Positions 24,679 to 37,434 of a stretch of DNA of 64,000 nucleotides are shown here, piece after piece. The notes below the pieces were generated by a model, which worked only from the letters and a program-made list of their open reading frames with translations, ran no database searches and was not told where the DNA came from. A program made the position numbers and the translations under genes. The stretch's first letter is position 1, and each line of letters starts with the position of its first letter. The stretch lies in NCBI RefSeq assembly GCF_004369205.1, contig NZ_QFGA01000002.1, positions 558,001 to 622,000 on the forward strand, written 5' to 3'. The stretch comes from Pelotomaculum schinkii. Its GTDB lineage: Bacteria; Bacillota; Desulfotomaculia; Desulfotomaculales; Pelotomaculaceae.

Positions 24679-25016
24679 TCGAAAAGCCTCATGCGTAGTG
24701 GGCTTGGGGTTATCCTCCGCTCTCTTCGCAATTCTCCATTTGTGCAACAAGAGTGTCATGCCGACCGCATCTACAGACAGCCATCCGCTAGCTACGCGCT
24801 ATTCAAGCTTTTCTGCAAGCTACGCACGCGCTAAGGAACGCACCCAGGTGCAGGCTTATACTGCATTTCTTACCGGTCAGTCGTAGGGCGTAGGCTTATA
24901 CTGACTTGTATCTGGGTCAGGCGTAAGGTGATGATCCCCGGGTATTATTTTTTACGCCTTACGCCTTACGGCCTACGGCTATTTTAGCCCCAAGCCCGCA
25001 AGTCAAGCCTTTTCGA
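24679..25016. repeat. MITE-like element with imperfect terminal inverted repeats
   Basis: Left end 24679-24709 (TCGAAAAGCC...GGGCTTGGGG) and right end 24988-25016 are imperfect inverted copies of about 30 bp. Inside there are no credible genes but a TATACTGCATTTCT box (24858-24871) and 7-bp units of the CGTAAGG/CGTAGGG type on the left with their complements (CGCCTTA CGCCTTA CGGCCTA) at 24952-24978, able to form a long hairpin. The remaining parts of the 24549-25177 gap show nothing else. Confidence 0.7.
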
Positions 25017-32059: not shown

Positions 32060-33004
32060 TTAACCGTGCGCAGCCCCGATAAGTTCTTTGATATCGCCGA
32101 CACCATTTTCGCTTAAGTATTTTTCAATACCCTCCAGCACATCGATAGTGGCGCGAGGGTTGACGAAGTTGGCGGTGCCTATGGCTACGGCGGTGGCTCC
32201 GGCTAATATAAATTCCAACGCGTCTGCAGCGGTTGCAATGCCGCCCATGCCGATAATGGGCAGTTTTACAGCCTGGTAGACCTGCCAGACCATGCGCACC
32301 GCAACAGGCCTGACGGCGGGACCAGAAAGCCCTCCCATAGTGTTGCCAAGTATGGGACGCCTGGTTTTGATATCAACAGACATACCCAGCAGGGTATTAA
32401 TCAAGGAAATAGCGTCCGCTCCGGCTTCCGCCACTTTTTCAGCAACAGCCGCGATACTGGTGACATTGGGAGATAGCTTGACTACCACAGGCAGCTCACT
32501 GTTCTCTTTGACCGCCCGGGTTACCTCAGCCGCCATGGCCGGGTCGCCGCCGAACTGCATGCCGCCCTTTTTGACATTGGGACAGGATATATTAACCTCC
32601 AGCCCGGCCACACCACCAGCCCGGCTGAGCCTGGCAGCGAGCCCGGCGTAATCCTCCAATGTGTCACCGGAAATATTAACAATGACCGGGACGTCGAAGC
32701 CGGCCAGGTAGGGCAAAGCCTCGTCGATAAAATGCTCAACACCGGGATTCTGCAGGCCGATTGAGTTGAGCACCCCGGCAGGCGTCTCCACCAACCTGGG
32801 GGTCGGGTTCCCGGCGCGCGGCTCCAGGGTTGTCCCTTTTACCACTATAGCGCCAAGCCGGTTTAAATCGATATAAGGAGCGTATTCCGGCCCAAACCCA
32901 AAGGTCCCCGAGGCTGTGGTCACCGGGTTTTTCATCCTGATGCCGCCGACGTTGACGGAAAGGTCAGGCTTGGATATTGAAGCATTGTCACTGTCTGAAA
33001 TCAT
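32060..33004 (-). CDS. pyrD: Dihydroorotate dehydrogenase, class 1B catalytic subunit
   Basis: FMN enzyme oxidising dihydroorotate to orotate. Class 1 catalytic cysteine in [11 protein letters not shown] (about residue 137) and FMN-phosphate loop GMGGI near the C-terminus. 314 residues. Its start overlaps the pyrK stop (ATGA), consistent with the PyrD2-PyrK2 complex that uses NAD. Confidence 0.96.
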
Positions 33005-33828
33005 TCCCAGCTCACCTCCCCTGATTGAAAGACAGGGCCTTCCACACAGACCCGGTGGTATACGGACCCGCCATCCCCGGTCTTTACTTTACAGGCGCAG
33101 GACAGGCAGGCGCCCACGCCACAACCCATCCGTTCCTCCAGGGATACTTCACACGGTATCCCCCACCGTGCCGTAATCTCACTTAGCTTTCTCAGCATGC
33201 CGTGTGGCCCGCAGGCATAACTTTTATTCATAATTAAATTCTCACCTGCTCCAGGGCCGGGAGCAAAGTCACTATTTTGCAGATAGTTTTCAAAAAGTGT
33301 AGTTACACTCCCGTGGAAGTCCCTGGTACCATCATCAGTCGCTATAAATACGCTGTGGCCAAGCTCCTTAATCTCGTTTCCCAAAAGGACCTGTTGGGAG
33401 GTAGCGGCGCCCTGAAAGACAGTGGCTTTGATGCCCAGGCCGGCAAGCTCCTGCAAAAAGAAGTAAAGTGGCGCAATTCCAATGCCTCCGGACACTACGA
33501 TAACTTTTTCATTCCCCTCAGGTATTGTAAAGCCGCGCCCCAGGGGACCAACGATGCTGACCATATCGCCGGATCTGTGCCCGGCCAGAAGAGATGTTCC
33601 CCTGCCGGCGACCCGGTAGAGCAGAGACACCTCGCCGGTACGCCTGTCCACCGCGTTTATACTTATTGGCCGGCGCAGGAGGGGGTCATGCGTACTGCCG
33701 CAGCGCACGTGCAGAAACTGCCCCGGCCTGGCCCGTTCCGTCACGGATGGAGCTGCCAAATCCATCCGGTAATACCCCGGGATGACTTGTTTGTTTTGAA
33801 TAACCTTTGCGTCAGTGACAAGAGACAA
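33001..33828 (-). CDS. pyrK: Dihydroorotate dehydrogenase electron-transfer subunit
   Basis: FAD/2Fe-2S subunit passing electrons from PyrD to NAD. N-terminal FAD domain with RRPISI, central NAD-binding part, and the C-terminal 2Fe-2S cluster C-x4-C-x2-C in [15 protein letters not shown] plus the distal Cys (RVCVEGP). TTG start at 33828 with GGGGGG seven bases upstream; that ribosome site abuts the heptamer-repeat block lying between this gene and carB. 275 residues. Confidence 0.94.
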
Positions 33829-33842
33829 ATCTGAAACCCCCC

Positions 33843-34221
33843 TTTTGGGTCGTGGGACGTGGGTCGTGAGTCGTGGGTATATACTGCATTTCTATTGGGT
33901 CATGGGTATACTGCATTTCTAATAGATTAGATAACCTGCCGCAGAAGTTACGCCGGCAGTAGGATGAAAACGTGAGCCGGTGTGGGTGCGATTTCAATCG
34001 CACACGGCGCGCCGGCGCCGCACTTGCCGGATCGGAGGTAGCATTTGTGCGAATAAATTCGCACCTACATTTTTTTCGTGAGTCGTGTGTCGTGGGACAT
34101 GGGTATATACTGCATTTCTAATGAGTTTAATAAGGCTTTGCCGATATTTCGTGCTCGCATACGTGAGACAAGGGATGGTTCTCACGTCTCACGTCCCACG
34201 TCTCACGTCTCACGTCCCATA
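33843..34221. repeat. Composite heptamer-repeat and palindrome block
   Basis: The 390-base gap between carB and pyrK is built of repeats. Left: tandem 7-mers CGTGGGA/CGTGGGT/CGTGAGT (33849-33878) leading into ATATACTGCATTTCT; a second such block at 34077-34098 leads into the same box. Right: complementary 7-mers (CTCACGT CTCACGT CCCACGT repeated, 34180-34219). Between them are the perfect-arm palindromes at 33986-34003 and 34047-34064 (GTGCGA...TCGCAC). No gene is evident. It splits the pyr operon between carB and pyrK. Confidence 0.8.
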
Positions 34222-37200
34222 TTACCGGAGGTACTCCTGCAGCGGGACCATTTTGAAATCACCGTCTTCTTTATGGCCGGCCAGCACGTCCAGGATCACC
34301 CGTGCGGTGTCCAGTGAGGTCATACAGGGCACACCATGCTCCACTGCCGTGCGGCGAATCTGGAAGCCGTCCCGCTCCGGGTTCTTGCCCCTGGTCAGGG
34401 TATTTATGACCAGGTTGACCTTGTTGGCCCTGATGCAGTCAACTATATTCGGGGAACCCTCGTGTACCTTCTTGACCTGGTCGACCGGCAGCCCTGCCTC
34501 CTTCAGCATAGCCGCGGTTCCCGCGGTGGCCCGGATTTTATAGCCCAGCTCCGCCAGCCCCTTGATGATGGGCAGGGTCTCTTCCTTGTCCCGGTCGGCG
34601 ATGGTAACCAGGGCGGTCCCTTCCCTGGGGAACATTCTGCCCGCCGCCAAAATGGCCTTATAAAACGCCCGGTAAAAATCACGGTCAACCCCCATCACCT
34701 CACCGGTGGATTTCATCTCCGGCCCCAGTGAAATATCGACCTGGAGCAGCTTGGCGAAGGAGAAGACCGGCACCTTGACGCCTACAAATTCACTTTCCGG
34801 GTAAAGCCCGCCCTGGTAGCCCAGTTCCTTTAAGGTCCTGCCCATAATCAGCCTGGTCGCCAGGTTGACCATGGGGATACCGGTAATCTTGCTAATAAAC
34901 GGTACCGTCCGGCTGGAGCGAGGGTTTACCTCGAGCACATACAGCTGTTCCCCCTGCAGGACGTACTGAATATTAATCAGGCCTTTGACGTTCAGCGCTT
35001 TGGCCAGCTGGGTAGTGTAGGCCACCACCTGCTCTTTGGTGCGCCGGCTCAGCGTCTGGGGCGGGTAGACAGCGGTACTGTCACCGGAGTGCACCCCGGC
35101 TCTCTCGATATGCTCCATGATGCCCGGGATTAAAACGTCCGTCCCGTCAGAGATGGCGTCAACCTCCAGTTCCTTGCCGGAGATATATTTATCCACCAGC
35201 ACGGGGTGTTCGGGGGTAACTTTGACGGCGCTGGACATGTAGCCTAAAAGTTCCTCGTGGTTATATACAATCTCCATGGCGCGCCCGCCCAGGACATAGG
35301 AAGGCCGGACCAGCACCGGGTAGCCTATATCATTGGCTATAACCACGGCCTCCTCCACGGAAAAGGCAGTCCGCCCGGGCGGTTTGGGTATGCCCAACTC
35401 AATCAGAAGTTGATCAAACCTCTCACGGTCCTCCGCCCGGTCAATATCTTCAACGGAGGTGCCGAGGATTTTTATACCGGCGTTTTCCAGGGGCTTGGCC
35501 AGGTTGATGGCGGTCTGGCCGCCGAACTGGACGATAACCCCCTCCGGTTTTTCCCGGTCCAAAATGTTCAGCACATTCTCCGCAACCAGAGGTTCGAAAT
35601 ACAGCCGGTCGGCCGTGTCAAAATCTGTGCTGACAGTTTCCGGGTTATTGTTAATGATGATGGCTTCATAATTTTCCTCCTGCAGCGCCCACACCGAGTG
35701 CACCGAGCAGTAGTCGAATTCAATTCCCTGACCGATGCGGATGGGCCCGGAACCCAGCACCACCACCTTACGGCGGGTGGAGGCCTCCGCTTCGTCCTCC
35801 TGATCGTAAGATGAATAGTAGTAGGGCGTCTCAGCCTCGAACTCGGCGGCGCAGGTGTCGACCATCTTAAACGTAGGCAGGATTCCTTGCTCTTTGCGCA
35901 GGGAACGTATATCTGTGACGCTCAGGCCGGTCTTTTTAGCCAGGTAGGCGTCGGAAAAACCGAATTTTTTAGCTCTCTCCAGCAGCCCGGGGCTAAGCTT
36001 TGCTGCTCCGGCGGCCTTGATTTCTTCCTCAAGGAGCAGTATGCCCTGGATTTTCTCCAGGAAAAAGTGGTCAATCTTGGTTATTTCGTGGACCTTCTCA
36101 CAGGTCATGCCCCGGTACAGCGCCTCCGCCACCAGGAACAACCGCTCGTCGTCGGCGCCAGCCAGCCTTGCTTCAAGTTCCTCAAGGCTTAATGTTTCCA
36201 CACCGGGCAGATCCATGTGATCGAGGCCGATTTCCAGGGAGCGGACGGCTTTTAAAAGCGCCCCCTCAAAGGTGCGGTTGATCGACATGACCTCTCCGGT
36301 GGCCTTCATCTGCGTGCCCAGTGTACGGTCCCCCTTGGCAAATTTGTCAAAGGGCCAGCGGGGGTACTTGACAACTACGTAGTCGAGGGCAGGCTCAAAA
36401 CAGGCGTAGGTTTTGCCGGTAACGGCATTCCTGATTTCATCCAGGTTCAGGCCGATAGCGATCTTGGCGGCCACCTTGGCGATAGGGTAGCCGGTGGCCT
36501 TGGAAGCCAGGGCCGAGGAACGGGACACCCGCGGGTTGACCTCAATGACATAGTACTGGAAGCTGGCCGGGTCAAGCGCAAACTGCACATTGCAGCCGCC
36601 CTCGATACCCAGGGCGCGGATAATTTTCAGCGAGGCGGTCCGCAAAAGCTGGTATTCCTTATCACTCAAGGTCTGGGAGGGCGCCACCACGATACTGTCC
36701 CCGGTATGGATTCCCATGGGGTCAATGTTTTCCATATTGCAAATGGTGATGCAGTTGTCGGCGCCGTCCCGCATCACCTCGTACTCAATTTCCTTCCACC
36801 CCACCACACACTGCTCGATCAGCGCCTGGTTGATAATGCTGTATTTCAGACCTTTGGTGGTGATGGCCCTGAGTTCCTCCATGGTGCGGGCAATGCCGCC
36901 GCCGGTGCCGCCCAGGGTATAGGCCGGCCTGACAATCAGCGGCAGGCCTACTTTTTCGGCAAAGGCCATTGCTTCATCCAGGGTGGATACGATGGCGCTG
37001 TCAGGGACGGGCTCGTTGATGGCCTGCAGCATATCTTTGAACATTTCCCGGTCCTCGGCCCGTTTAATGGCGTCCAGAGGGGTGCCCAGGAGCTTCACCC
37101 CCTCCTGTTCCAGTACGCCGGACTCGGCCAACTGGAGGGCCAGGTTGAGGCCCACCTGCCCGCCCAGAGTGGGCAGCAAACCGTCCGGCTTTTCCTGCCG

Positions 37201-37434
37201 GATAACCCTGGTTACAAATTCCAGGGTCAGGGGCTCGATATAGACACGGTCGGCCATATTGGCGTCAGTCATGATCGTGGCCGGGTTGGAATTAATCAGG
37301 ACCACTTCCAGTCCTTCTTCCCGCAGGGAGCGGCAGGCCTGGGTGCCGGCATAATCAAACTCTGCCGCCTGGCCGATAATAATGGGGCCGGAGCCAATTA
37401 CCATAACCTTCTTGATATCTTGCTTGAGCGGCAT
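34222..37434 (-). CDS. carB: Carbamoyl-phosphate synthase large subunit
   Basis: Synthetase subunit with two homologous ATP-grasp halves (about 1-400 and 555-930), an oligomerisation region between them and a C-terminal MGS-like allosteric domain (about 940-1070). 1070 residues is normal. Starts one base after the carA stop. Supplies carbamoyl phosphate to PyrB in the same operon. Confidence 0.97.

Follow-up and report, generated by a model that had tools for sequence, protein, structure and literature searches.

The window analysed here is a stretch of 64,000 nucleotides of the Pelotomaculum schinkii genome (C2:558001-622000, in an assembly of 4,436,185 bases on 8 contigs). On its minus strand carB is followed by pyrK, and the spacer between the two genes holds a heptamer-armed element together with the Shine-Dalgarno stretch of the host. 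Positions without a contig name are those of the window, and the parts of the locus are as follows.

33001 to 33828, minus strand: pyrK, the downstream gene, named from sequence, with a TTG start taken at 33828.
33829 to 34221, minus strand: the whole carB-pyrK spacer, that is, the heptamer-armed element plus the host Shine-Dalgarno stretch (repeat search and comparison with relatives).
33837 to 33846, minus strand: the pyrK Shine-Dalgarno stretch, AAAAGGGGGG in sense (the complement of 33837-33846), outside the element.
33846 to 33878, minus strand: the 3' arm, pyrimidine-rich in sense, four full units (period-7 and inverted-repeat searches).
33880 to 33894, minus strand: subterminal box TATACTGCATTTCTA, copy 1.
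33907 to 33921, minus strand: subterminal box TATACTGCATTTCTA, copy 2.
33981 to 34069, no strand assigned: a REP-like repeat nested in the element, with a pair of GTGCGA..TCGCAC palindromes; it belongs to a dispersed family of its own.
34077 to 34104, minus strand: the 3' arm repeated in the interior; arm and box together make up a direct repeat of 51 nt, 84% identical.
34106 to 34120, minus strand: subterminal box TATACTGCATTTCTA, copy 3.
34180 to 34219, minus strand: the 5' arm, CGTGRGA, purine-rich in sense, five full units (period-7 and inverted-repeat searches).
34222 to 37434, minus strand: carB, the upstream gene, named from sequence.

Two bases separate the carB stop codon (34222-34224) from the right-hand arm, which is the 5' arm in sense, and the sense end of the pyrimidine-rich arm directly abuts AAAAGGGGGG. 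The initial annotation had proposed that the spacer supplies the ribosome site of pyrK. Because AAAAGGGGGG is found immediately beyond the left arm, and the carB-pyrK spacer of a relative (L112) is bordered by a very similar stretch, the element is apparently not the source of this site.

In Tandem Repeats Finder three arrays of period 7 come up, at 33846-33878, at 34180-34216 (or 34180-34219 with a period of 21) and at 34076-34094. The inverted-repeat search pairs 33846-33875 with 34183-34212 over 30 nt (83% complementary) and 33853-33877 with 34195-34219 over 25 nt (88%). Both searches bear out the complementary CGTGRGW heptamers first noticed on the two sides of the spacer. The left and right layout drawn for them holds for the complementary outer arms, but not for 34077-34104, a third array, which lies further in and is oriented like the left one. 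Between the arms we found the three boxes and the nested palindromes that had been described there: exact copies of TATACTGCATTTCTA start at 33880, 33907 and 34106, and a repeat search of the spacer gives a palindrome pair at 33981-34004 and 34046-34069, plus direct copies. The sense RNA of the spacer has a predicted fold of -134.3 kcal/mol (z = -6.07), and none of 100 shuffles is equally stable; the inverted arms and this predicted fold support the large hairpin suggested earlier from the complementary heptamers. A search of Rfam with positions 33000-35000 gave no match up to E = 1, and a riboswitch, a leader or another known RNA was rejected on this ground.

A genome-wide search for the heptamers and boxes, recommended in the initial annotation, shows that both recur at many sites. 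The three-unit pattern CGTSDSWx3 has 62 + 53 = 115 matches in the genome, and the reversed pattern has none; the 115 are matches and not arrays, as longer arrays are counted several times and a few places match both strands. The number of units differs from copy to copy. The TATACTGCATTTCTA box is found at 20 places with at most one mismatch (7 exact), against one for the reversed-pattern control. Heptamer arms and boxes form a dispersed element, far beyond chance. The GTGCGA palindromes are present inside the element, as had been claimed, but they belong to a separate dispersed repeat, 6 of whose 7 fetched copies lack a CGTGRGW array nearby. This repeat has at least 61 matches in the genome, mostly to the palindrome part of the query (40 of 250 first-look candidates were scored). 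A second element-like stretch lies in the window at 24855-24979, where a box TATACTGCATTTCTT is followed by CGTAGGG units and a TTACGCC array.

We surveyed the arrays in the window and in 20 stretches fetched from among the matches listed, with gene starts and neighbours taken from a simple home-made caller. Of 65 arrays, 53 lie between co-directional genes, 2 between convergent and 1 between divergent genes, 4 inside ORFs and 5 at stretch edges; as background, 36 of 46 neighbouring gene pairs in the window are co-directional. Arrays that carry CGTGRGW on the coding strand (purine-sense) lie close to the upstream gene, 15 of 19 at -12 to +10 nt of its stop codon. Those with the complement on the coding strand (pyrimidine-sense) lie 16-26 nt before the called start in 15 of 34 cases and elsewhere in the other 19. 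A 50-kb block with the ribosomal-protein and rpoBC cluster, its genes named from sequence and order, holds 30 of the 65. In this cluster the called start of rplV (L068, 2165-2575) is upstream of a pyrimidine-rich arm, such that the first codons would translate heptamers (RTSHVPRLT); the call is probably wrong, and possibly an N-terminal extension. The cluster also contains an apparently identical 1500-bp ORF twice (L068, 11864-13363; L069, 8330-9829). The two copies have equal length and the same first 60 residues, MNTSPQIQAAQDYL..., and are perhaps an insertion sequence.

Elsewhere in the genome a gene lies between such arms. In a spacer of protein-coding genes (L064/L181), an intact 119-aa ORF of PF05635 ('23S_rRNA_IVP', a four-helix-bundle family; IVP below) is located at C1:1609464-1609778 between CGTGRGA arms at C1:1609390-1609417 and 1609826-1609853, and the window element has the same CGTGRGA arms. 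A profile search of the window element itself gave no IVP match. Three further PF05635 copies of the genome (L178, L179 and L180) lie inside 23S rRNA genes, judged by the surrounding sequence; Rfam confirms LSU rRNA for L178 and L180, and the 900 displayed bases of L179 are identical to L178. The arms of these copies are likewise tandem heptamers, of a sequence other than CGTGRGA. The link to the 23S rRNA intervening-sequence protein is an addition of this analysis, absent from the initial annotation. We define an IVP-associated heptamer-armed element by its inverted arms of period 7, and the window element has such arms.

Among 190 element or spacer sequences tested, a significant IVP match was found in two, the intact L064 and a decayed IVP between arms in a relative (L120). 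Another relative (L145) has a short IVP ORF tail between arms, which was seen by eye and is not significant in the HMM search. With L120 and the L145 tail as the only finds, we rejected IVP relics as a regular content of short elements. No PF05635 hit was obtained in four genomes of the family that have CGTGRGW arrays, G001 (94% complete), G004 and G023 (85-87%) and G015 (100%).

Heptamer repeats accompany IVP genes well beyond this genome. A strong lag-7 repeat was seen in the PF05635 flanks of 18 of 32 loci from the own genome and relatives, against 7 of 124 control stretches. A separate draw across the phylum gave 17 of 29 against 7 of 116, and plasmids (14 loci, 12 cyanobacterial) 8 of 14 against 3 of 56. 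The other lags between 4 and 13 reach the threshold at no more than 2 loci per set (lag 8, 2 of 14 plasmid loci; lag 11, 2 of 29), and the signal at lag 14 tracks that at lag 7. An extra, small control of whole non-IVP genes gave 3 of 34 against 43 of 75 for the pooled PF05635 loci, a pool that includes duplicates and partial matches and, for the plasmid rows, flanks of 120 nt. As these sets were gathered by PF05635, they show that IVP genes have heptamer arms and not what share of arrays comes from IVP elements.

After 5 rows were dropped, the pooled arm set comprises 70 PF05635 loci. A 5' arm was found at 46, a 3' arm at 43, both at 37, an arm on either side at 52 and none at 18, with median arm lengths of 33 nt (5') and 32 nt (3'). 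At the 37 loci with both arms, the 5' unit and the reverse complement of the 3' unit differ at 0, 1 or 2 positions in 14, 10 and 10 cases (34 of 37 with at most 2), whereas exchanged unit pairs give 0, 19 and 51 of 370 (70 of 370). The two flanks of a PF05635 locus pair better with each other than with the flanks of other loci in 48 of 58 cases (p = 1.5e-7). The arm sequence varies by species and locus, with 36 distinct 5' units, and purines make up on average 0.67 of a 5' unit and 0.36 of a 3' unit. Two ideas about the arms were abandoned. A stop triplet in the unit would appear in every frame, because 7 = 1 mod 3, and 16 of the 36 different 5' units have such a triplet, as do 11 of the 38 3' units, which is too weak against an expectation of roughly 28%. 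We also dropped the purine-first polarity of the arms as a sign of insertion orientation, because an inverted repeat keeps its polarity in either orientation.

Outside rRNA, both neighbours could be called at 34 IVP loci; co-directional genes flank 29 of them, and in 27 of these 29 the IVP gene is on the strand of both neighbours. On cyanobacterial plasmids (L243, L244, L245 and L250) we observed IVP genes between cas6 and cas4, between cas10 and cmr3 or, on the strand opposite to its neighbours, between ribonucleotide reductase genes. The three IVP proteins tested match TIGR02436, and one cyanobacterial copy has a weak match to the retroelement protein Avd (E = 1.9e-6, below the model cut-off). 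The sole solved relative by sequence is XCC0516, the Xanthomonas homologue, with five chains in PDB entry 2GSC. Of the seven matches to the reverse transcriptase family PF00078 in the genome, one is partial and another contains a stop; nothing links any of them to the element.

A comparison of the same spacer in relatives, also recommended at the outset, revealed short, armed and composite forms. The three-unit array is present in 8 of 60 genomes searched: besides the own genome, these are 6 members of the same family and 1 further genome of the order. The carB-pyrK spacer is short (17-30 nt) in L099, L100, L105 and L110. In L112 it measures 129 nt with CGTGRGW arms and looks orthologous, and in L102 it is a composite of 561 nt. 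Further relatives have spacers of 51-280 nt of other sequence, and at six loci carB was not found beside pyrK. One spacer of 41 nt (L097) keeps only the box of the element (GAATGCAGTATATA).

Spacers of the ribosomal operon were compared across 16 relatives; one and the same spacer is short or carries a hairpin of other heptamers, and long heptamer-free spacers occur as well. For example, the rplE-rpsN spacer is 10 nt long in L163 and L167 and has TTAGTGG-type arms in L164 and L169, where it is 115 and 113 nt long. The placement of period-7 runs was tested over 17 genomes, with the starts in relatives estimated from tblastn. Such a run is found in 58 of 171 ribosomal spacers of 60-800 nt and in none of the other 113. 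Of 41 purine-rich runs, 25 begin no more than 6 nt from the stop, where uniform placement expects 2.35, and only 2 are near a start. Of 31 pyrimidine-rich runs, 19 end no more than 30 nt from the start (5.7 expected), and 4 are near a stop.

We also compared the pairing of the two ends in every usable spacer of 60 nt or more, 158 in all, whether or not it has heptamers. In 109 of 152 cases the own ends pair better than ends swapped in from the equivalent spacer of other genomes (p = 9e-10), and in 106 of 158 better than ends taken from other spacers of the same genome (p = 5e-9). Strongly pairing ends are seen in some long spacers without heptamers too. A single closing helix is predicted for 23 of 29 arm-bearing spacers, compared with 36% of shuffles and 52% of 112 lag-7-free spacers. 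The predicted unpaired distance from stop to Shine-Dalgarno site averages 11.4 nt, against 13.6 nt in dinucleotide shuffles; as the shuffles give a similar value, this distance alone does not support loop-out, and we discarded the shortening of the distance as a stand-alone argument. One set of array loci was found with a pattern requiring AT after the array, and so the conserved AT that flanks those arrays is no evidence. Long exact CGTGAGA arrays were seen in Treponema MAGs (L119, L128, L132, L142, L146, L147, L150 and L160), where they are apparently unpaired (8 of 43 stretches), and several of them adjoin a shared GGACGTACTACGCC-like motif.

We consider it probable that the carB-pyrK spacer holds an IVP-less copy of an insertion element resembling the intervening sequences (IVSs) of 23S rRNA, whose arms pair in the mRNA and fold the insert out. 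The ends of such an element would be inverted arrays of about four 7-nt repeats each. Full elements would carry the four-helix-bundle gene (PF05635/TIGR02436) between the arms, and would sit in 23S rRNA genes, as classical IVSs, or, mostly, between co-directional protein genes. The arms, their complementarity and position, the occupied and short sites and the association with IVP genes are seen directly; we infer that full elements move and that shorter copies lost the IVP gene by internal deletion. In the mRNA the arms would pair into a stem of about 30 bp, the base of which would bring the upstream stop codon beside the downstream Shine-Dalgarno site. With the two signals joined at the stem base, the insert would be folded out and the operon would stay usable, its translation preserved. 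The analogy with 23S IVSs suggests possible cleavage of the stem by RNase III. Several observations weigh against the reading: 18 of the 70 PF05635 loci show no arm under the criterion applied, significant IVP matches were confined to 2 of 190 sequences and did not include the window element, four array-bearing genomes of the family gave no PF05635 hit, 113 of 171 ribosomal spacers are free of lag-7 runs, strongly pairing ends occur without heptamers too, 19 of 34 pyrimidine-sense arrays lie elsewhere than 16-26 nt before a called start, and the long Treponema arrays look unpaired.

ERIC, BOX, NEMIS and REP/BIME are small transcribed palindromic repeats in operon spacers, some of them known RNase III substrates. 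Their sequence is fixed within a genus, and they are not known to have heptamer arms or an IVP gene. The short tandemly repeated repetitive (STRR) sequences of cyanobacteria are tandem repeats of heptamers, and the initial annotation had likened the spacer to cyanobacterial heptamers of this kind. The kinship gains support from the arms of IVP loci, which are like STRR in unit length: at the strict threshold, the 8 armed loci among the 14 plasmid loci of the PF05635 family are all cyanobacterial.

The 23S rRNA IVS of Coxiella burnetii is cut by RNase III and has tandem heptamers (GACAGAT) at its 5' end (PMC4990558). 23S IVSs have complementary ends that form a long stem, like the window element, a subset of them has an ORF of the S23p/IVP family, and their distribution is sporadic; the own genome has three such IVSs. 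The window element differs from these in lying in the mRNA spacer between carB and pyrK, without an ORF. Located outside rRNA and lacking an ORF, it does not count as one of the 23S IVSs, and is best called an IVS-like, IVP-related heptamer-armed element.

Intergenic heptamers have been described in Xanthomonas (GGGAATC) and Nostoc (GGGGA(C/T)T), mostly as four units between aligned ORFs (PMC4692102). They lie within 50 bp of the stop (sense) or of the next start (antisense), and some overlap the stop. Convergent pairs number 70 and 75 in two Xanthomonas genomes, and Nostoc has few inverted pairs (PMC4692102). The arrays of the window genome fit the rules given in PMC4692102: about four units, aligned ORFs, sense near stop, antisense near start, and convergent pairs. 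That paper reads the heptamers as G-quadruplexes, reports that generally no association with mobile elements was found, and states that their functional role is still to be elucidated. The term 'four helix' is absent from its main text, where we found no link to IVP or IVS. The TAACTGA repeats of Beggiatoaceae are intergenic heptamers near start codons, found in distant phyla including cyanobacteria and Bacteroidetes (PMC4679880). According to the same source they are nearly all direct (169 sets, one inverted), unlike the window arms, and they overlap the expected ribosome site, whereas the window arms border it. Among the titles and beginnings of abstracts listed by searches of PMC, a scope that excludes most subscription journals and bioRxiv, no paper joins IVP genes with heptamer arms except that on the Coxiella IVS. 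The closest prior work is PMC4692102 for the heptamers and PMC4990558 for the IVS.

The alternative that fares best, though we think it unlikely, is an ordinary MITE, a non-autonomous transposon served by an unrelated transposase, whose terminal inverted repeats are heptamer arrays by chance and whose position between stop and Shine-Dalgarno site only reflects the loss, by selection, of insertions elsewhere in tight operons. Inverted ends, variable interiors, dispersed copies and the occupied and short sites in relatives are as a MITE would have them, and a flush position is expected where the spacer had only 10-25 nt before insertion. However, among elements found through their arms, IVP is the only gene recognised between the arms (L064 and L120), in a search that did not extend to transposases and over elements most of which are too short to code. 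The arm sequence varies by species and locus (36 distinct 5' units), unlike the fixed ends of a transposase family; in 27 of 29 cases the IVP gene runs in the direction of its neighbours; and inspection of the relatives' spacers by eye revealed no target-site duplication.

A little less probable still are hairpins that evolved locally, with selection for a stem from stop to Shine-Dalgarno site building slippage-prone heptamer arms in place, no moving element, and IVP ORFs that merely exploit the sites. The different heptamers in the same spacer of different species agree with such an origin, as does the excess of cognate over exchanged pairing, which extends to heptamer-free spacers. Yet the same heptamer and the same box recur at many unrelated sites of one genome, which points to copying, and IVP genes with heptamer arms are found in 23S rRNA as well, where stop and Shine-Dalgarno sites do not exist.

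We regard it as very improbable that the arrays are regulatory repeats forming G-quadruplexes, as proposed for the Xanthomonas and Nostoc heptamers (PMC4692102), in spite of the shared preference for four units, the strand preference near stop and start and the convergent pairs described in that paper. Some CGTGGGA runs of the genome do have four GGG tracts, but GAG units interrupt the tracts in the window arms. By an eye count, GGG occurs in no more than 6 of 36 distinct 5' units of the IVP loci, and G-quadruplexes therefore cannot be the general basis of the arrays. Finally, a unique product of local slippage without function, which the initial annotation had named as the outcome that would undo its reading and with which the varying unit number would agree, is rejected by the genome-wide count (115 matches against none for the reversed pattern) and has against it the corresponding CGTGRGW-armed copy in a relative (L112).

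The IVS-like insertion element remains our preferred reading of the carB-pyrK spacer, and we tentatively extend it to a broader proposal, which we hold to be possible rather than probable. The intergenic heptamer repeats of many bacteria may largely be arms that belong to a single widespread class of RNA-level insertion elements, intercistronic counterparts of the 23S IVSs, carried by or derived from IVP (four-helix-bundle, Avd-like) genes. Such elements would colonise operons exactly between stop and Shine-Dalgarno site and would persist because the stem rejoins the two. The stem, about 30-33 bp made of about four heptads, might be recognised by an IVP ring (the PDB entry of the Xanthomonas homologue has five chains) or by a host reverse transcriptase. 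That the unit has seven bases in order to match the IVP ring or about three turns of the helix is speculation. If true, the proposal would join the origin and movement of 23S rRNA IVSs, the function of the 'four helix bundle protein' and the excess of intergenic heptamers, and it predicts where a polycistronic mRNA tolerates such inserts.
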